A stretch of 38,047 nt of DNA from a virus, in the IMG/VR virus record IMGVR_UViG_3300044611_002810, positions 1 through 38,047 of that record; one strand, 5' to 3'. Below are positions 21,331-30,983 of this stretch, one piece after another. The notes below the pieces were generated by a model. That model did no database searches. It saw nothing but the letters and a program-made list of their open reading frames with translations, and was not told the DNA's origin. The first letter of the stretch is position 1; each line of letters begins with the position of its first letter. Position numbers and translations under genes: made by a program.

Positions 21331-23283
21331 TCACCCGATCCAGCGGCTCTTGATGACGCGGCGCGCGGGTTTCGGGATTCCAGAAACACCGAGGCCACCG
21401 CTAGGGGTGGCCTCGATGGGGAATTCGGTGTCAGTCGTTTGTGGATCCGGGGGCGACAGCCCCATCTGCCGCTCCAGTTCGCGCCAATGGCGTTCCTCAA
21501 AGCGGTCCAGCCCTGCGGCAGCAGCGGCTGCTCGGGCGTAGACGTAGCAGTCCAGCGCCTCGTTGCGCTCGCGGGTCTTCTGCCATTCCCGCACCGGAAA
21601 GCCGTTGCGGTTGCGGCGGGTGATCAATTGCTCGGCGCAGAGTTGCTGGATGAACTCGGCGTCCACCTTCGGCAGATGCACGAAACCAGCGGGGTAGATG
21701 GCCGTGACGCCGTCCTCATCCACCTCGGCGGCTTTGCGCAATGCGTTGTAGAACTCCAGCTTGGCGATGCCCACGGCGACCGAATAGACCTTGATGCCCC
21801 GGCGCAGCTTCTTGCCGGCCTGGGTCACGTCCACTGCTTTGGGTGTCCCAATCAGTGCAGCGCCCCGAGGCACGCCTTTCACCGCCATCAGCCGGTGATC
21901 CTTTGCCATCCGCACGAAGGCATAAGCCTCCTGCGTGGCGAAACCGGTATCCAGTGCGATGCGGGCCAGCGGCAGTCGCGCGCCGGAGGCGTGGATCCAG
22001 GTTTCAGTCAGTATTCCGGCCAACTGACGCCACACCGTGTCCCGCGCGGTGTCGCCCATCAGCACCCGGTGCTCGATCAGCCATGCCTCTTTGCCGCGCC
22101 CGAAGGCCCAGATTGAGGCCTCGATGCGATCCTTCTGCACGTCGGCCCCACCCACCAGTAGCAGGCCGCCGGCCGGGATGGAACCGATGCGGTAGTCCTC
22201 GCGCCGCTCCAGCAGTCGCTGCCAGTCCGGCGCCTCGCCTTCCTCGATCCAGGTCTCACCCAGTTCCGTGTTCTTGAAGGTCTTGATGGCGCTGGCCGAT
22301 CCGGATTCCTTGTTCACGGAAGACTCCCAGGCAGCAGCGATGTCGCGCCAGGATCGCCAACCGATCGGGCTGTAGAGGGACGAGAGGTGGAAGCCTGCCG
22401 TCTTGCCATTGCTGGTTCCCAGCGCCCGCCACTCGCCGGCCGCCAGCATTGCGGTCTTGTGATGTTCGGCTATGGCCGTGTCGCAGGTCTCGCAGACATA
22501 GGCCGCCGTCTCCGGCTGATGCTTGTCCCAGCGCAGTTGCTCGAAGCGCAACCACTGGCGGTGGCCGCAGTGCGGACACGGCACGAAGTAGCGGCGCTGG
22601 TCCGATGCCTCGTACTCGCGCTCGATGGCCGACACCCCAGCAATGGTTGGGGTCGAGACAATAAAAATCTTGCGCCGCGCGAAGGTGCGGGTGCGGGCCT
22701 CGGCGAGTGAAATTGCATCCCCTTCGCCATCGACGTCCAGGGGATAACCATCCACCTCGTCGAGGAACAAATACCGCACCGGCATCGAGCGCAGGCCGAC
22801 GGCGCTGTTGGCTCCGGTCATCACCAGCACGCCACCCCGGAATTCCTTCGCCAGGATGGTGTTGCCCGAATCGCGGCTGCGAGCCGGTGAGATCAGTTCC
22901 TTGAGGGTGGGTGACTCCTCGATTAGCGGATCGATCCGCTGTTTGGAGTTGCGCTTGGCCATCTCCACCGTGGGCGACACCGCCATCATCGGTCCGGGCG
23001 CGTGGTGGATCACATAGCCGATCCAGTTGTTGCCGCACTCAGTCTTGCCCAACTGGCCGCCAGCCATGAACACGATGCGTTCGATGGGAGAGGTCGGCGA
23101 CAGGCAGTCCATGATCTCCTTCAGATACGGCGTGCGGCTGGTGCGCCAGCGCCCTGGCTCCGAGGAGGACTTGCTGGAAAGAATCCGATGCCGGTCGGCC
23201 CATTCCGACAGCGTCAGCATCGGATCCGGAGTGAGCCCCTCGCGCCAGGCGCTTTCGATCTCCAGTCCGCCTTCGTAATCCAT
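21331..23283 (-). CDS. Terminase large subunit, GpA family
   Basis: 650 residues. Walker A GGQLGKTE at about 75-82, Walker B YLFLDEVDGYP at about 168-178, and a zinc-binding-like CPHCGHRQW with a later CETCD. The C-terminal nuclease half begins near GGADVQKDRIE, with further Asp in ALDTGF. This is the lambda GpA architecture: ATP-driven DNA translocation plus cos cleavage. ATG 23283 overlaps the small subunit stop as TGATG; the longer form would begin with TTG. The last residues are separated by 48 bases from the fibre-like gene. Confidence 0.95.
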   Translation of the reverse strand: MDYEGGLEIESAWREGLTPDPMLTLSEWADRHRILSSKSSSEPGRWRTSRTPYLKEIMDCLSPTSPIERIVFMAGGQLGKTECGNNWIGYVIHHAPGPMMAVSPTVEMAKRNSKQRIDPLIEESPTLKELISPARSRDSGNTILAKEFRGGVLVMTGANSAVGLRSMPVRYLFLDEVDGYPLDVDGEGDAISLAEARTRTFARRKIFIVSTPTIAGVSAIEREYEASDQRRYFVPCPHCGHRQWLRFEQLRWDKHQPETAAYVCETCDTAIAEHHKTAMLAAGEWRALGTSNGKTAGFHLSSLYSPIGWRSWRDIAAAWESSVNKESGSASAIKTFKNTELGETWIEEGEAPDWQRLLERREDYRIGSIPAGGLLLVGGADVQKDRIEASIWAFGRGKEAWLIEHRVLMGDTARDTVWRQLAGILTETWIHASGARLPLARIALDTGFATQEAYAFVRMAKDHRLMAVKGVPRGAALIGTPKAVDVTQAGKKLRRGIKVYSVAVGIAKLEFYNALRKAAEVDEDGVTAIYPAGFVHLPKVDAEFIQQLCAEQLITRRNRNGFPVREWQKTRERNEALDCYVYARAAAAAAGLDRFEERHWRELERQMGLSPPDPQTTDTEFPIEATPSGGLGVSGIPKPARRVIKSRWIG

Positions 23284-23819
23284 CAATCCACCTTCGGGCG
23301 CAACTCGCCCAGTTCCATCAGATGCGTGCGCACCGCCGCGTCCAGTGCGATGTGCAGGATGTGAGCATCCATGCCGAGGGTGGCCGCCATCTGCGCAGAG
23401 ACCCGCGCCGGCCAGTTGAGCCAGGCATCGCGTTCATTGCGCGCCAACTGGAATACATGGGCGATGGCCTGGGAGCGATCAACCAGGTCGCCCTTGAGCC
23501 GGGCCAGGCGCACTTTGTTGGTCTGCGCTTTGACCACTTCGTTGACCGTGCGCGCCTGCAGCAGTGAGGTGCCGCCGGTGCCCAGGGAGGGTGCCAATGA
23601 CTCCGCTGGCGCCTGTGGTTCCTTGACGTTGATGGTATCGGCCCGGCGCTGGGTGCCCTGTGCTGGCGCCTCGGTGTTCTTGTTCCACTCCCGATCGACC
23701 TTGTCTGGATCCAGTGTGCCATCCGCTTCGGGCGTGATGCGGCCAGCGCGAATTGCCTTGTGTACGGCGGTGTCGGACACCCCCCGATGGCGGGCGTAAG
23801 CGCGAATCGAGAGACCCAT
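23283..23819 (-). CDS. Terminase small subunit, Nu1-like
   Basis: 178 residues. The N-terminal winged-helix/HTH (SIRAYARHRGVSDTAVHKAI) and a Pro/Gln-rich linker precede a helical region (VRLARLKGDLVDRSQAIAHVF) that binds the large subunit. This is the Nu1-type layout; it recognises cos/pac and nucleates packaging. It is first in its operon. The short region upstream to 23858 could contain part of cos, but no cos pattern can be proven here. Confidence 0.85.
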   Translation of the reverse strand: MGLSIRAYARHRGVSDTAVHKAIRAGRITPEADGTLDPDKVDREWNKNTEAPAQGTQRRADTINVKEPQAPAESLAPSLGTGGTSLLQARTVNEVVKAQTNKVRLARLKGDLVDRSQAIAHVFQLARNERDAWLNWPARVSAQMAATLGMDAHILHIALDAAVRTHLMELGELRPKVD

Positions 23820-23858
23820 GAAATCCAGTGAATAAATGATGGTTTTGTTCGAGATAAA

Positions 23859-23889
23859 GCTTGGCTTGTATCTGGCACAGCGCGTTCAT
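23859..23889 (+). promoter_or_regulatory. Repeated 31-bp element, copy 1
   Basis: GCTTGGCTT, ten variable bases, CAGCGCGTTCAT; 34 bases before the ATG at 23924. An A-rich patch (GATAAA) lies immediately upstream. See finding on the five-copy element. Confidence 0.75.
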
Positions 23890-23923
23890 GACTACACCAT
23901 CCACCACGTCCACGGAGACGACC

Positions 23924-24193
23924 ATGACCACGCAAACCCCCGAAAAACGCCAGGAACTCGTCGACGAACTGCGCGAGATTCAGATGCAGATGCTCGAGTG
24001 CCTGGAGCAAGCCAAGACCCTGATCAAGCAAAGCGGCCAGGAGATGACGCTGCAACGGGCCGAGTCCTACTGGCTTGCCCACGCCAAGATCGCCCTGACC
24101 AACGACCACAGCTACCTGGGCGGCTCAATGTGCTCGATGGAAGACACCATCGCGGAAATCGAAGAGGCCACTGAGGACGACGACGAGGACTGA
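23924..24193 (+). CDS. Small acidic hypothetical protein
   Basis: 89 residues starting MTTQTPEKRQELVDELREIQ. Helical N-terminal two thirds and a very acidic C-terminus (EEATEDDDED). No family recognised. Start chosen at 23924 because ACGGAGACGACC precedes it and because the element-to-ATG spacing then equals that of the other copies. The upstream in-frame ATG at 23888 lies inside the repeat element. Confidence 0.65.
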   Translation: MTTQTPEKRQELVDELREIQMQMLECLEQAKTLIKQSGQEMTLQRAESYWLAHAKIALTNDHSYLGGSMCSMEDTIAEIEEATEDDDED

Positions 24194-24218
24194 TCGAGAT
24201 CGGGAAGCCCGGCGAAAT

Positions 24219-24249
24219 GCTTGGCTTCCCGCTCGAACAGCGCGTTCAT
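24219..24249 (+). promoter_or_regulatory. Repeated 31-bp element, copy 2
   Basis: Same half-sites and same 10-base spacer; 36 bases before the ATG at 24286 and 25 bases after the preceding stop. Upstream sequence allows GGGAAGCC to pair with GGCTTCCC of the element. Confidence 0.75.
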
Positions 24250-24285
24250 CCCATCACCATCAACGACGTCAGAAGGACCCCGACC

Positions 24286-24495
24286 ATGAGCCAGATCGAC
24301 ACCATCTTCACCCTGATCGCCCAGAAGCACCTGCGCATCGACACCCTGGAAACCCGCCATTCGGACCGCCTCGATTTCCACGACGTGGCGGTCTGGAGTG
24401 TCCGCGACGCACTGGAAGCCGCGTTCAAAGCGGGGGTCGAAGTCGGCATGAACGTGTCGCGCCCCTCCGAGCAGGACATCGCCAGCGCCGACTGA
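24286..24495 (+). CDS. Small phage protein, DUF6900-like
   Basis: 69 residues starting MSQIDTIFTLIAQKHLRIDT. The block ETRHSDRLDFHDVAVWSVRDALEAAFKAG is the diagnostic core (its middle, SDRLDFHDVAVW, is best conserved) of a small family I recall as DUF6900, found in phages and plasmids. Function unknown. AGAAGGACC precedes the ATG. Confidence 0.75.
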   Translation: MSQIDTIFTLIAQKHLRIDTLETRHSDRLDFHDVAVWSVRDALEAAFKAGVEVGMNVSRPSEQDIASAD

Positions 24496-24522
24496 ATTTA
24501 GATCGAAGACCAAGCGCGAAAC

Positions 24523-24553
24523 GCTTGGCTTCCTGCTTGAACAGCGCGTTCAT
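24523..24553 (+). promoter_or_regulatory. Repeated 31-bp element, copy 3
   Basis: Identical half-sites and spacer length; 34 bases before the ATG at 24588 and 27 bases after the preceding stop. Here CCAAGCG upstream pairs with CGCTTGG at the element edge (loop CGAAA). Confidence 0.75.
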
Positions 24554-24587
24554 GACATCACCATCAACCACCCCGAAGGAGCAGCAA

Positions 24588-25226
24588 ATGACCACCCTCC
24601 AACTCACCGCCACCCAACACGCCGTCCTGGCCTATGCCATCCATCACACTGACGGCAAGATCGATTGGTTCCCGGAGAACATCAACGGCGGCGTGCGCAA
24701 GAAAGTCATCGCCGGATTGTTCAACCGCGCTCTGATCACCCCCAACGGCACCGACTGGTTCGTCGCCGCCGAGGCTTACGACGCCCTGGGCTGCACGCGC
24801 CCCGCGCCCATCACGCCGGAAGCGGGCGAGGCCGACGCCGACGCCAACAACGCCGAGGCAGCGCAATACGGTGCAAGCCATGTCCTGCTTGACGAGGTTG
24901 GTGGCGAAGACCCGACCGACGCTGAAATTGACGCCAGCCACGACGACGATCCCGAGATCGAGGCTGCAGTGGCCGCCGCCGAAGCGACTTGGCAGGACAC
25001 GACCAAGGCCGCCAAGCCCCGCACCCGCGAGAACAGCAAGCAGGCCACCGTGATCCAGATGCTCCAACGCCCCGAGGGGGCGACGATCGCCCAGATCTGC
25101 AGCGCTACGGGTTGGCTGCCCCACACCGTGCGCGGCACCTTCGCCGGCGCGTTTAAAAAGAAACTGGGCCTTGTCCTGACATCGGAGAAGGCCCAGGGAG
25201 GCGACCGGATTTACCACGTCGCCTGA
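24588..25226 (+). CDS. DUF3489-type protein
   Basis: 212 residues. N-terminal helical domain (TATQHAVLAYAIHHTDGKID), an acidic linker rich in Glu, Asp and Ala (about 80-140), and a C-terminal winged-helix-like module of the DUF3489 type: RENSKQATVIQMLQRPEGAT, GWLPHTVRGTF, then GDRIYHV. DUF3489 proteins recur in phages and mobile elements and probably bind DNA, but no function is established that I know of. CGAAGGAGC precedes the ATG. A GC-rich hairpin follows the stop. Confidence 0.8.
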   Translation: MTTLQLTATQHAVLAYAIHHTDGKIDWFPENINGGVRKKVIAGLFNRALITPNGTDWFVAAEAYDALGCTRPAPITPEAGEADADANNAEAAQYGASHVLLDEVGGEDPTDAEIDASHDDDPEIEAAVAAAEATWQDTTKAAKPRTRENSKQATVIQMLQRPEGATIAQICSATGWLPHTVRGTFAGAFKKKLGLVLTSEKAQGGDRIYHVA

Positions 25227-25233
25227 TTCAGTT

Positions 25234-25252
25234 GGGGCGGCTTGTCCGCCCC
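25234..25252. terminator. Bidirectional hairpin between convergent genes
   Basis: Perfect stem GGGGCGG/CCGCCCC with loop CTTGT, placed between the convergent stops of the DUF3489 gene (25226) and the HU gene (25258). No T-run follows on either strand, so it may rely on Rho or act only as a 3' end stabiliser. Confidence 0.55.
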
Positions 25253-25257
25253 ATCCA

Positions 25258-25590
25258 CTATTTCTTCTTGGCGGGTTTTGCCGCTTTGGTGGTCTTGGTG
25301 GCATTGGGCTTCTTCACCGGATTTACCAAGGCTTTCAATGTGGCGCCTGCTGTGAATTTCGGCACCGTTGCGGCAGCAATCTTGAGCTTCTCTCCCGTTT
25401 GGGGATTCTTGCCCTCACGCGCGGCACGCTGGCTGGTCTTGAAAGTGCCAAAGCCGATCAAGGTGACTGACTCCCCCTTGGCCATCGTTTCAGACACGGT
25501 ATCCAGAACAGCAGCCAGTGCGCGACCTGCATCAGCTTTGGTGAGTTCGGACTTGGCAGCGATGGCGGCAATCAGCTCGGTTTTATTCAT
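25258..25590 (-). CDS. HU/IHF-family DNA-binding protein with basic tail
   Basis: 110 residues starting MNKTELIAAIAAKSELTKAD. The HU core (about 1-88) has the beta-arm RAAREGKNPQTGEKLKI and the GFGTFKT turn. A Lys/Thr/Pro/Ala-rich tail (about 89-110, KKPNATKTTKAAKPAKKK) follows, as in histone-H1-like HU variants. It would bend or compact DNA and may serve phage replication, packaging or transcription. GGAGAAGC precedes the ATG. It is encoded opposite the surrounding small genes. Confidence 0.93.
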   Translation of the reverse strand: MNKTELIAAIAAKSELTKADAGRALAAVLDTVSETMAKGESVTLIGFGTFKTSQRAAREGKNPQTGEKLKIAAATVPKFTAGATLKALVNPVKKPNATKTTKAAKPAKKK

Positions 25591-25678
25591 TTTGCTTCTC
25601 CGGGTTTTGGAGGTCGCATTGTCACCAAGGAATTCCTGGGCTTGCAAGCGATGAACCTGCAATCTTCTGCTTGGAATA

Positions 25679-25709
25679 GCTTGGCTTCATTCCATGTCAG
25701 CGCGTTCAT
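25679..25709 (+). promoter_or_regulatory. Repeated 31-bp element, copy 4
   Basis: Same half-sites and 10-base spacer; 33 bases before the ATG at 25743. It lies in the divergent gap between the HU gene and the next plus-strand gene. An imperfect hairpin (GGGGGCGT/ACGTCCCCC, one bulge) follows in the leader. Confidence 0.75.
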
Positions 25710-25742
25710 GGGGGCGTCAACCACGTCCCCCGGAGCCACCAC

Positions 25743-25883
25743 ATGGACTTCCATCTCTACAAAGCCATCCGCGCCGACGGCACGGTGTACTTCTTCCACC
25801 ACCGCAGCATGGAGGAGGCCAAGGTCTTCGCCAGTGACGCGGTGAAGGTGATCGATTGCCACAGCCAGGAGGATGCGCAATGA
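25743..25883 (+). CDS. 46-residue hypothetical protein
   Basis: MDFHLYKAIRADGTVYFFHH, then RSMEEAKVFASDAVKVIDC. A compact alpha/beta pattern: strand, hairpin, helix, strand. Supported by CCGGAGCC before the ATG, by the conserved element spacing, and by the ATGA overlap of its stop with the next gene. No family recognised. Confidence 0.65.
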   Translation: MDFHLYKAIRADGTVYFFHHRSMEEAKVFASDAVKVIDCHSQEDAQ

Positions 25884-26143
25884 ACACCATCGCCATTGAA
25901 ACCTTGGGACAAAAACTCGGCACAGCAGCACTGACTGCACTGGTTCGTCTCTGCCCCGAGATCAGGACCGCCAGCCCGGCGCGACAGGAGGCCGCGTGTG
26001 CGGCGATGCGCGCCAAGTCCAAGGATGCCATCGACGAGTTGCTGTCGGACGCCAAGGCTGCGCCCTGGCTGGCCGAGGTGGCGTTTGCCAGCGCGGTACT
26101 GACCATCGCCAACGAAGGCATCAGGGTGCTGCGGGTTGACTGA
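25880..26143 (+). CDS. Small hypothetical protein
   Basis: 87 residues starting MNTIAIETLGQKLGTAALTA. All-helical in appearance, no recognised family. Translationally coupled to the preceding small gene (ATGA), with GGAGGATG in the preceding coding end as binding site. A hydrophobic C-terminal helix (WLAEVAFASAVLTIANEGI) is too polar at its ends to call membrane-spanning. Confidence 0.65.
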   Translation: MNTIAIETLGQKLGTAALTALVRLCPEIRTASPARQEAACAAMRAKSKDAIDELLSDAKAAPWLAEVAFASAVLTIANEGIRVLRVD

Positions 26144-26171
26144 TCAAACTCACGGAAATGCAGGTGAATAC

Positions 26172-26202
26172 GCTTGGCTTCTCAATCACACAGCGCGTTC
26201 AT
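26172..26202 (+). promoter_or_regulatory. Repeated 31-bp element, copy 5
   Basis: Same half-sites and spacer; 36 bases before the ATG at 26239 and 28 bases after the preceding stop. A GAATAC patch lies just upstream. Confidence 0.75.
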
Positions 26203-26238
26203 ACGGGTGTCGCAACCAACCACCTGCAGGAGAAAACG

Positions 26239-26607
26239 ATGGCCACCACCAACAACACCCCCGCCACCCAGAACGACGCCTGGGGCTTTTTTGGCACCAT
26301 GAACGAACACGCCGACGCCGCCTGGCCGATCGCGATGCGCGCGGTTGCCGAGGCCACCGGCCAGTCGCTGGAAACGGTTCGAATCTTTATGGACAGCCGG
26401 TACGGACGCCATTTTGCGGACAGCGTCCTTGAACAGATGTTTCTCGGCGCAGATCTGGATGCCGCGATCGCAGCCGCCACGCAGAAGTGGATGTGCTGGA
26501 CTATTGGCCGCATCACCAGCAAAGAATACGGGATCCCGCGCGGGATGCCCTACCTGACCGGGTTTGTGATTCATACCGAGATCACTGACGAAGCGCTTGC
26601 CGCCTGA
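26239..26607 (+). CDS. Hypothetical protein
   Basis: 122 residues starting MATTNNTPATQNDAWGFFGT. It carries several Trp and Met, with no signal or membrane segment. The C-terminal half (AAATQKWMCWTIGRITSKEYG) may form a helical bundle. GCAGGAG precedes the ATG. The 3' end overlaps the end of the convergent methyltransferase gene by 37 bases. Family unknown. Confidence 0.65.
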   Translation: MATTNNTPATQNDAWGFFGTMNEHADAAWPIAMRAVAEATGQSLETVRIFMDSRYGRHFADSVLEQMFLGADLDAAIAAATQKWMCWTIGRITSKEYGIPRGMPYLTGFVIHTEITDEALAA

Positions 26608-27851
26608 TCGAACGCAGCATCGAAGGCCACCCCATCCGACTGGCGGGTGGCCCGGCCGCCAGCGAACTCCTGCCAGCGGCGCACGATCACATCCACGTAC
26701 TTCGGATCGAGCTCAATCAAGCGCGCCTGGCGGCCTGACTTCTCAGACGCAATCAGCGTGGTGCCCGATCCGCCGAAGGCATCCAGCACGACGTCCCCTG
26801 GGCGGCTTGAGTTGCGGATCGCCCGCTCCACCAGTTCTACCGGTTTCATGGTCGGGTGCAGATCATTCTTGTGCGGCTTCTTGATGTTCCAGACGTCACC
26901 CTGGTCACGGTCGCCGCACCAGTGGCGCTTCGAACCCTCCGGCCAGCCATACAGGATCGGTTCGAACTGGCGCTGGTAATCGGCGTGGCCTAGGGTGAAC
27001 GTGTTCTTGGCCCAGATGATGAAAGTGGACCACTTGCCACCGGCGGCGCGGAACGCGGATTGCAGCGTGTCGAGTTCAGAGGAGGACATGGCGATGTAGA
27101 CCGCGCCATGGCAGTGCGCCAATGTTGGCGTCAGCGCCGCCAGCAGGAAATCGTAGAAGCCATCACCTAGGTTGTCGTTCAGGATCGCCCGATCCTTGCC
27201 ACGCTGCCTGTCCTTGGCCGTGTTGGCGTAGTTGACGTTGTAGGGCGGGTCGGTAAAGGCCATGTCAGCCCGCTCGTCGACCAGCAGTGCCTCATAGCAA
27301 TTGGCATCGGTGGCGTCACCGCAGAGCACACGGTGGTCGCCACAGATCCAGATGTCGCCAGGCCGGGACACCGGAATCTCCGGCACATCGGGCGCGGCAT
27401 CCTCATCGGTTTGCCCATCTGTCGTGGTCTCCTCGCCGGCCAACAGATCGGCCAGTGCATCGGCGTCGAAACCGGTGAGCGACAGGTCGAAGTTGTCGTC
27501 CTGGAGGGCCGCCAGTTCCACCTGGAGCATGGCCTCATCCCAGCCGGCGTTCTCAGCAATGCGGTTGTCCGCGATGACCAGGGCGCGGCGCTGGGTGGGT
27601 GTGAGATGGTCAAGCACCACGACCGGCACGGTCGAGATGCCGAGCTTCTGGGCGGCGGCGAGGCGCCCATGCCCGGCCACGATCACGCCGTCGCCTCCGG
27701 CGAGGATGGGATTGGTGAAACCGAACTCGGCAATCGATGCGGCGATCTGCGCGACCTGGGCGTCGGTGTGGGTGCGGGCATTCCGCGCATACGGCAGCAG
27801 CTTGCCGGTCGGCCACTGCTCGATCTTGTTGGCGAGCCAGGAGATGCTCAT
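26571..27851 (-). CDS. ParB-N / DNA adenine methyltransferase fusion
   Basis: 426 residues. Residues 1-100 form a ParB/Srx-like nuclease-type domain (NARTHTDAQVAQIAASIAEF, then VIVAGHGRLAAAQKLG). From about 155 the methyltransferase follows: AdoMet-type D12 class beta with catalytic DPPY (MAFTDPPYNVNY) and the later motif VVLDAFGGSGTTL. DPPY suggests N6-adenine (or N4-cytosine) methylation. Orphan methyltransferases of this build in phages protect DNA from host restriction or tune regulation. ATGA overlap with the upstream paralogue. No cognate nuclease visible. Confidence 0.92.
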   Translation of the reverse strand: MSISWLANKIEQWPTGKLLPYARNARTHTDAQVAQIAASIAEFGFTNPILAGGDGVIVAGHGRLAAAQKLGISTVPVVVLDHLTPTQRRALVIADNRIAENAGWDEAMLQVELAALQDDNFDLSLTGFDADALADLLAGEETTTDGQTDEDAAPDVPEIPVSRPGDIWICGDHRVLCGDATDANCYEALLVDERADMAFTDPPYNVNYANTAKDRQRGKDRAILNDNLGDGFYDFLLAALTPTLAHCHGAVYIAMSSSELDTLQSAFRAAGGKWSTFIIWAKNTFTLGHADYQRQFEPILYGWPEGSKRHWCGDRDQGDVWNIKKPHKNDLHPTMKPVELVERAIRNSSRPGDVVLDAFGGSGTTLIASEKSGRQARLIELDPKYVDVIVRRWQEFAGGRATRQSDGVAFDAAFDQAASASSVISV

Positions 27852-29847: not shown

Positions 29848-30222
29848 CTACCCCAGTGTCGCCACCATCTCGATTTTCGGTGCGATGGATCGCACGGCCT
29901 TCTGAATGCCGTGGCCAGGGTTCGCCTGCCGCTCCGATACGATCAGTCCCATCTTCTCCAGCAACCCGACATCCTTGGTGATGGCCGAACGATTTCGGTG
30001 CAAGCGATGAGATAGCTCGTTGATGGTCCTGGCCTCATGCATGACCTCAAGCATCAGTCGGCGACGCTCCTCCGACAGGACGGTAAACATCCGCTGCGGA
30101 TCTTCGAACGAGAGCGTGACCTTGCCTTCGAAGGCTTCGCCCCGATCAGCTCTGCGTGCGGCATCCTTGGCGCGCGCAAAGAAGCCTGCCACATCATCCG
30201 TGCGAACAACGACCTTGGTCAT
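29848..30222 (-). CDS. Antitoxin-like HTH protein, TumA / HVO_A0114 family
   Basis: 124 residues starting MTKVVVRTDDVAGFFARAKD. The second half is a winged helix (EARTINELSHRLHRNRSAIT, KDVGLLEKMGLIV) of the HVO_A0114 DNA-binding type, the usual partner of TumE toxins. The N-terminal half probably neutralises the toxin. Its start overlaps the toxin stop (ATGA), giving toxin-first order. It may repress its own operon, which has no evident private promoter here. Partner identification is from memory of the families. Confidence 0.85.
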   Translation of the reverse strand: MTKVVVRTDDVAGFFARAKDAARRADRGEAFEGKVTLSFEDPQRMFTVLSEERRRLMLEVMHEARTINELSHRLHRNRSAITKDVGLLEKMGLIVSERQANPGHGIQKAVRSIAPKIEMVATLG

Positions 30223-30551
30223 GGTTTCTTTCCTCGTGTTTTGTCCACAATCTCCAGCCACTCTTGCTGAAATCTTTCCTGCGTTGCTTCGTAACTCACG
30301 AACTCAACAGCTTCGATCACACCCAAGTAATGCCGGTGGTGATAACCATGGGCATTGTCAAAACCCAGAACCCGACCGTTGTCGCCCTGGTGGATCGCGT
30401 GGTTGATGTAGGCCAGGTTGTACCGGGTCACCACCGTCCGCCCCTTTTCGACATACCCCCAAACCTCATAGTTCAGAAGCCCGCCACCTGACTTCGGCTT
30501 GAGTTCGAATCGTTCCTGTTCGAGCAAGACTTCCTTGGGTGCCTTAGCCAT
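30219..30551 (-). CDS. Toxin of TumE family (DUF6516)
   Basis: 110 residues. The motif HGYHHRHYLGVIEAVEFVSY, followed by EATQERFQQEW, is the TumE/DUF6516 signature; YNLAYINHAIH lies before it. The mechanism is not established as far as I know; the conserved Tyr/His/Arg cluster suggests a ribonuclease-like active site (inference). The pair likely gives addiction or abortive protection. It follows the DUF6362-like gene after 9 bases, so it can be read as part of the early operon. Confidence 0.8.
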   Translation of the reverse strand: MAKAPKEVLLEQERFELKPKSGGGLLNYEVWGYVEKGRTVVTRYNLAYINHAIHQGDNGRVLGFDNAHGYHHRHYLGVIEAVEFVSYEATQERFQQEWLEIVDKTRGKKP

Positions 30552-30560
30552 AACGCATCC

Positions 30561-30983
30561 CTAACTCAGATGTGCATCACGGTAGCACACCTGAACAGGT
30601 GTGTCAGCACGATCATTGAGTCGTGCAGCTACCACGCCCAACGCTCGCTGCCAGCGTCGCCATGCCGTCGTGCGATCGCAGCCGATGCGCCGGCAGATGT
30701 CCTTCCACTCGCGCTGCTTGGCGCGCATCCAGATCAGGTGGCGTTGCTCTTCCTCCAGCCATTGCACCCAGCGCATGGCTTCCATCATCCGGTCGATCGC
30801 CTCGGGTGTGGGTGGCAGAGGCCGGTATTCGTAATCCTCACCAGCGAAGGTTTCCCACTCCTTGCGCGCGAAGGCGGGCCACACGTTGAAGTAGCCCTGC
30901 ACCCTGACGGGTGGCAGTCGCCGCCCCGTCTCGGCTGCCTCGAGGAAACGCGCAGCCACGTCGTCCATCGTCCACTCAGTCAT
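30561..30983 (-). CDS. DUF6362-like protein
   Basis: 140 residues starting MTEWTMDDVAARFLEAAETG. The sequence LPPVRVQGYFNVWPAFARKE is the hallmark of DUF6362. The C-terminal part (DICRRIGCDRTTAWRRWQRAL) is a plausible helix-turn-helix, so DNA binding is likely. The function is unknown. Start chosen at 30983 (overlap of 8 bases with the preceding stop). Confidence 0.8.
   Translation of the reverse strand: MTEWTMDDVAARFLEAAETGRRLPPVRVQGYFNVWPAFARKEWETFAGEDYEYRPLPPTPEAIDRMMEAMRWVQWLEEEQRHLIWMRAKQREWKDICRRIGCDRTTAWRRWQRALGVVAARLNDRADTPVQVCYRDAHLS

Follow-up and report, generated by a model that had tools for sequence, protein, structure and literature searches.

The viral record IMGVR_UViG_3300044611_002810 (positions 1 to 38,047; hereafter the window, meaning the whole 38,047-nucleotide stretch analysed) carries five copies of a 31-base element, GCTTGGCTT-N10-CAGCGCGTTCAT, which marks one family of temperate tailed phages whose type is Acidithiobacillus phage AcaML1. 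Comparison across the family suggests that the element is probably a core promoter region, or a composite of promoter and activator site, through which the phages run a private regulon. It consists of two unlike blocks with a fixed 10-bp spacer; its position and spacing are constant, it is conserved, it accompanies particular genes, and it is restricted to phages.

The five copies lie on the plus strand, starting at 23859, 24219, 24523, 25679 and 26172, and a scan permitting up to three mismatches found every one of them with none, where 0.00 matches are expected (100 dinucleotide shuffles). The element ends 34, 36, 34, 33 and 36 nt before the ATG codons at 23924, 24286, 24588, 25743 and 26239, the preceding stop codon is 25, 27 and 28 nt from copies 2, 3 and 5, and no sigma-70 consensus pair is found in 23700–26700 (0.5 expected). 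Family and PHROG scans show the proteins encoded behind the elements to be mutually unrelated, with differing PHROGs; they include DUF6900 and DUF3489 proteins and others without a family. All of this agrees with the initial annotation, which described five copies with identical half-sites and a constant N10 spacer, an ATG 33–36 nt downstream, stops 25–28 nt upstream of these three copies, no canonical sigma-70 pair, and unrelated genes. It also placed each copy before one small gene; there are indeed five units, but the fourth has two genes (25743–25883 and 25880–26143), so what the element precedes is a transcription unit, which may hold more than one gene.

Conservation and distribution of the element

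Loci recruited by protein similarity to the DUF3489 and WGFW genes, independently of the motif and thus avoiding circularity, contain the element in 77 of 79 non-redundant upstream regions (68 of them perfect matches), with the ATG 30–38 nt away; the two exceptions are genes that follow an element-led gene in an operon. Unique copies in the fetched loci number 348 exact and 45 with one mismatch. The spacing is rigid, with 11 nt between CTTGGCTT and AGCGYSTT in 265 of 266 pairs and 17 bp between TTGGCT and the terminal hexamer GTTCAT or GTTACT, and the AGCG of the right block hardly varies. Among 685 copies the last hexamer is GTTCAT in 541 and GTTACT in 97, the latter forming a second element class with a longer conserved leader; the remaining variants mostly retain the final T and mostly end in A/T (e.g. 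GTTAAT, CTGAAT, GTTTAT). A natural spacing mutant is present at one locus (L329), upstream of a WGFW gene, where a 4-bp duplication in the spacer gives N14 in place of N10.

The exact pattern occurs in at least 120 viral-contig stretches and at least 118 stretches of GTDB genomes, mostly of beta- and gammaproteobacteria and including, among the matches listed, the complete chromosome of Nitrospira defluvii. Each of 32 whole records or genomes has 1–7 sites and none for a reversed-pattern control, and in chromosomes of 3–6 Mb the sites are mostly inside prophage-sized regions. Members of the Ramlibacter family carry sites in 29 of 251 genomes (about one in nine), with no control matches; over approximately 1 Gb of bacterial genome sequence the control gives zero. 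The occurrence at random through host genomes that the initial annotation named as counting against its proposal is thus not what is seen, and the search it suggested in related phages and hosts finds the element to be widespread, gene-associated and phage-restricted. A local artefact or chance origin of the five copies is rejected by the shuffle expectation together with the spread among records and genomes.

Among 50,697 GenBank phage records, those of AcaML1, with four perfect elements, are the sole convincing matches, and a search of plasmids gave none. Two sites, a single one in a bacterial genome (G220) and one in Achromobacter phage JWF, are inside coding sequence and are taken as chance, and an apparent counter-example (G007) is a contig that starts at the element and so is missing the early region. 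The family is large and mostly uncultured, with hosts among the alpha-, beta- and gammaproteobacteria, Acidithiobacillus and Nitrospira.

Genes served and phage organization

The proteins encoded downstream of elements fall into 35 families, the largest being DUF3489, WGFW, DUF6900, DUF2924 and two that are unnamed. The element is upstream of 112 of 121 DUF6900 genes, 148 of 155 WGFW genes (the other seven having visibly degenerate copies), 46 of 48 DUF2924 genes and all 19 genes of family CL6. Genes of served families without an element are mostly operon followers or have visibly decayed copies; 34 of 42 such DUF3489 genes are in operons, and several of the many apparent absences at CL4 genes are mis-extrapolated start codons. 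By comparison, none of 593 control genes has the element (small terminase subunit, 0/148; methyltransferase, 0/272; AAA_24, 0/65; DUF6362, 0/108), the 65 AAA_24 genes all being within operons. Divergent alphaproteobacterial prophages have only one or two degenerate elements, heading operons of up to four genes, and these are the same genes that have one element each elsewhere; in one of them (L484) a single element serves an operon of four tightly joined genes. One element per operon of otherwise singly served genes is predicted by a signal at the head of a transcription unit. The initial annotation held that the element and not the genes had been multiplied, which fits the window, but each type of element is also found with its own gene family from phage to phage.

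Prophages of Pseudomonas mendocina, P. indica, Nitrospira and Ramlibacter share a common plan: a recombinase operon (element B), a repressor region, an early operon ending in two methyltransferases, an opposite-strand cluster of small genes (elements A), and then terminase, head and tail genes, with an end gene (element C) in some. There are thus three element-led contexts, namely the small-gene cluster antisense between the early and late blocks, an operon of DUF2924 and serine recombinase genes, and the end-of-phage gene. In phages fetched through DUF6362 the cluster lies 3.4–7.4 kb downstream in 33 of the 35 with enough sequence, and all 125 elements downstream of DUF6362 oppose its strand and the lytic operon. 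Element B has no fixed orientation with respect to the early genes, and at three loci (L382, L383 and L384) the element-led DUF2924-recombinase operons are ordered and oriented, with respect to those genes, otherwise than in the main plan. The Ramlibacter prophage has unrelated head and packaging genes with the same elements, and AcaML1 has an annotated contractile tail; the element is therefore not tied to the particle genes.

In the window, copy 1 (A1; 23859–23889, +) is 39 bp from the start, at 23819, of the divergent small terminase subunit gene (23283–23819, −), one of the negative controls, and leads a gene for an 89-residue protein without a family (23924–24193, +). Copy 2 (24219–24249, +) leads the DUF6900 gene (24286–24495, +; 69 residues; PF21841, E=1e-24), and copy 3 (24523–24553, +) the DUF3489 gene (24588–25226, +; 212 residues; PF11994, E=3e-31). 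Copy 4 (25679–25709, +) precedes an open reading frame for a 46-residue protein (25743–25883, +) followed by a gene for an 87-residue protein (phrog_36268; 25880–26143, +) that has no element of its own. Copy 5 (26172–26202, +) has the TCTCAATC spacer type usual for the WGFW gene family and leads such a gene (phrog_8020; 26239–26607, +; 122 residues), which is convergent with a second negative control, a DNA methyltransferase gene (26571–27851, −). Between units 3 and 4 there is a leftwards gene named by eye as coding for an HU-like DNA-binding protein (25258–25590, −), which is absent from the clusters compared in P. mendocina, P. indica and Nitrospira.

Three further gene groups are noted. 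An HVO_A0114-family helix-turn-helix protein (E=3e-12) is encoded beside a 110-residue protein in the window (29848–30551), resembling a toxin-antitoxin pair of the TumA/TumE type. In a Caldimonas prophage (L379, 9249–15140) an element 195 nt before a ribbon-helix-helix gene is accompanied by genes for a 1041-residue protein and an apparent DarT/DarG, recognized by eye. In AcaML1 (L488, 27072–31767) lysozyme is followed by genes for Dcm and McrB/McrC, at the end that in other carriers holds element C and defence-like cargo.

Promoter reading and its alternatives

Read as a promoter, the element would place (C)TTGGCTT of the left block at −35 and the GTTCAT or GTTACT that ends the right block at −10, exactly 17 bp apart, which is holoenzyme spacing. 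We infer promoter activity and its timing; the transcript would begin roughly 30 nt ahead of the ATG, with a short leader containing a Shine-Dalgarno sequence, and every copy would head one transcription unit of an accessory and integration regulon, comprising the antisense small accessory genes, the DUF2924-serine-recombinase operon and the end-of-phage cargo gene. Because the blocks are unlike those of sigma-70 and AGCG hardly varies, recognition most likely depends on, or is altered by, a protein that the phage encodes.

The element departs from three known promoter classes. The spacing of 17 fits sigma-70, but TTGGCT and GTTCAT match its hexamers at only four and three of six positions, with T at position 2 of the latter. 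Sigma-54 promoters have GG at −24 and an invariant GC at −12, whereas positions 17 and 18 are GA in most copies and variable. The left block also has no GGAAC of extracytoplasmic function (ECF) sigma factors, and no sigma-2-like protein was found among those early-region proteins that were scanned. The unusual promoter proposed in the initial annotation therefore stands insofar as the signal is element-specific, gene-associated, rigidly spaced, promoter-like and not of the sigma-70 type; its suggested reading by an ECF sigma factor or modified polymerase is not borne out by the proteins scanned, and the one sigma-4-like protein, DUF6362, was not found in AcaML1.

Several points weigh against a promoter. 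The −10-like hexamer has no A at position 2, which sigma-70 needs; AGCG, which lies between the hexamers, is no less conserved than they are, and some of the site may thus serve as an operator; the strict co-occurrence could stem from common descent of a whole phage module; and the short constant distance to the ATG is equally expected from a translational signal.

An operator is the strongest alternative, although we consider it unlikely. A phage repressor or autoregulator, such as the DUF3489 or AlpA-like protein, would bind the element and silence or tune a weak promoter that overlaps it, in the manner of MrpR at the SPbeta repeated element (SPBRE); repeated phage operators in intergenic regions thus have precedent (PMC10516654). 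The two asymmetric blocks are centred 21 bp, or two helical turns, apart, DUF3489, with its weak helix-turn-helix similarity, is encoded by AcaML1 and by 28 of 33 carriers, and the AlpA-like gene is itself element-led at three loci (L012, L062 and L265). The spacing nonetheless suits holoenzyme geometry, the lytic operon genes tested lack sites, so that it is not the master operator of the lytic genes, and the element is unchanged while the immunity repressor varies among carriers (XRE plus ImmA, another XRE, or LexA-like). The immunity repressor is disfavoured as reader on this last ground, and the repressor swaps lead us to reject an immunity operator; such an operator would be found at lytic early promoters and change with the repressor, whereas AAA_24 genes have none (0/65) and the same element accompanies swapped repressors.

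Action as RNA, in which a motif or hairpin in the 5′ leader would control translation or processing of read-through transcripts, is improbable. The constant ATG distance would suit it, and many internal copies are preceded by an arm that could pair with the left block (105 of 282 with at least eight of 10 bases complementary, against six such cases in shuffles), but the arm is mostly missing at first copies, upstream of which there is no conserved promoter. Pairing of the spacer is scarcely better with its own upstream sequence than with swapped ones (3.77 and 3.65, about two standard deviations), pairing of GAAC with GTTC in the right block is disrupted by uncompensated A19C and C29A changes, no Rfam match was obtained, and the covarying stem of a structured cis-regulatory RNA was not found; a hairpin as the core of the element was dropped, the co-variation of spacer and upstream arm being unconvincing. 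In the window (24219–24553), as in internal copies elsewhere, the left half-site supplies the 3′ arm of a hairpin; the 5′ arm comes after the preceding gene, and the hairpin has no T run behind it: copy 2 pairs as GGGAAGCC...GGCTTCCC, and the arm upstream of copy 3 (CCAAGCG...CGCTTGG) was noted by eye. Since the spacer hardly tracks the arm, we take the hairpin for an optional feature of internal copies that ends the preceding gene, rather than for the element itself.

The initial annotation also offered a cassette-type recombination site, which for the phage serine recombinase is very improbable. Gene content between elements does vary among phages, as it proposed comparing, and one copy is upstream of the recombinase operon, yet the spacer type tracks the downstream gene family, single elements head multi-gene operons, and the small-gene cluster has no recombinase. 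No half-sites or other partial sites were seen in the scans, where attachment sites would give hybrids at prophage ends; elements B and C are inside prophages and not at junctions, with the attL and attR cores unmapped. Least credible are a packaging (pac or cos) site, suggested by the adjoining small terminase gene but rejected by the structural swap in the Ramlibacter prophage and by copies 15–20 kb away at the recombinase operon, and a conserved peptide start (MNALFxxEAK) on the opposite strand, where the reverse complement is ATGAACGCGCTG but which is also rejected, as would-be third codon positions are not more variable (about 7/462 against 10/924) and the GTTACT class has no ATG.

Candidate readers and known systems

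DUF6362 (window 30561–30983, −), with a sigma-4-like helix-turn-helix, Q-like PHROG similarity and a weak Foldseek match (E above 0.7), is encoded in 28 of 33 carriers. It was initially favoured as an obligate reader and was dropped, not being found in the complete AcaML1 genome with its four perfect elements; a GafZ-type antiterminator site would have its regulator in each carrier with an intact early region. AcaML1 and five compared prophages have in common, among others, the recombinase operon, an AlpA-like HTH_17 protein and AAA_24. The AlpA-like protein is present in 27 of 30, the other three appearing to lack the phage early end, and DUF3489, whose C-terminal domain weakly resembles HTH_23 (E=0.005), is common to all those in which the cluster is covered. 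These two, the DUF3489 gene being itself element-led and its product a possible autoregulator, remain the most widespread DNA-binding candidates for the reader.

It is possible, if doubtful, that a phage specificity factor of a new kind (e.g. the HTH-like DUF3489 protein with host RNA polymerase) defines its own −35/−10 promoter class, unchanged in Pseudomonadota and Nitrospirota, which would activate integration and accessory genes and oppose early-to-late read-through by convergent transcription, as a CII-like decision circuit with unrelated parts. In lambda, one activator site is common to the CII-dependent promoters pI, pRE and paQ, which include that of the integrase and one that runs antisense where early genes give way to late ones. 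The likeness, a shared site at an integration promoter and an antisense early-late promoter, is one of analogy only, as the CII site TTGC-N6-TTGC is absent from the element and no CII homologue is among the proteins scanned.

Repeated start-proximal or promoter elements are already known as a kind in phages. The Start-Associated Sequences (SAS) and Extended SAS of cluster K mycobacteriophages (PMC3203893, PMC12699233) are likewise repeated, mostly in one orientation, just before the start codons of many small genes, conserved with gene family across the cluster, and proposed to control expression. They differ in that SAS is a 13-bp sequence, GGGATAGGAGCCC, near the start codon, a core that the present element does not have, and Extended SAS are inverted repeats with a variable spacer, in contrast to two unlike blocks with a fixed 10-bp spacer, 33–36 nt from the ATG, in proteobacterial and Nitrospira hosts. 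The SPbeta repeated element bound by MrpR (PMC10516654) is also asymmetric and repeated in phage intergenic and promoter regions, whereas the lytic operon genes tested here are without the element. The GafZ-binding element of the Caulobacter gene transfer agent promoter (PMC11150451), where a phage-derived factor with a sigma-like helix-turn-helix, as in DUF6362, acts with RNA polymerase at −35/−10, is a palindrome between −35 and −10 of one promoter, and DUF6362 was not found in element-bearing AcaML1. Q-binding elements belong with it as sites at the −35/−10 of phage-derived promoters that are recognized jointly with RNA polymerase. Literature searches with the motif letters gave, among the matches listed, only unrelated primer-type hits, those for DUF6362 gave none, those for DUF2924, DUF3489 and DUF6900 gave other subjects only, and a search by words in combination gave no match. 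Sequence, architecture, targets and host range all set the element apart from these precedents, and no earlier description was found in the literature.

The phage family is represented in GenBank by AcaML1 alone, despite its presence in about one in nine of the sampled Ramlibacter-family genomes, and a single motif search retrieves it, with 1–8 sites per genome. If the promoter reading is true, the element would be a compact, orthogonal expression signal for many proteobacteria. It unites the uncharacterised DUF6900, DUF3489, DUF2924 and phrog_8020 proteins with the integration recombinase as one regulon, whereby 'hypothetical proteins' become testable parts of a lysogeny or accessory programme.
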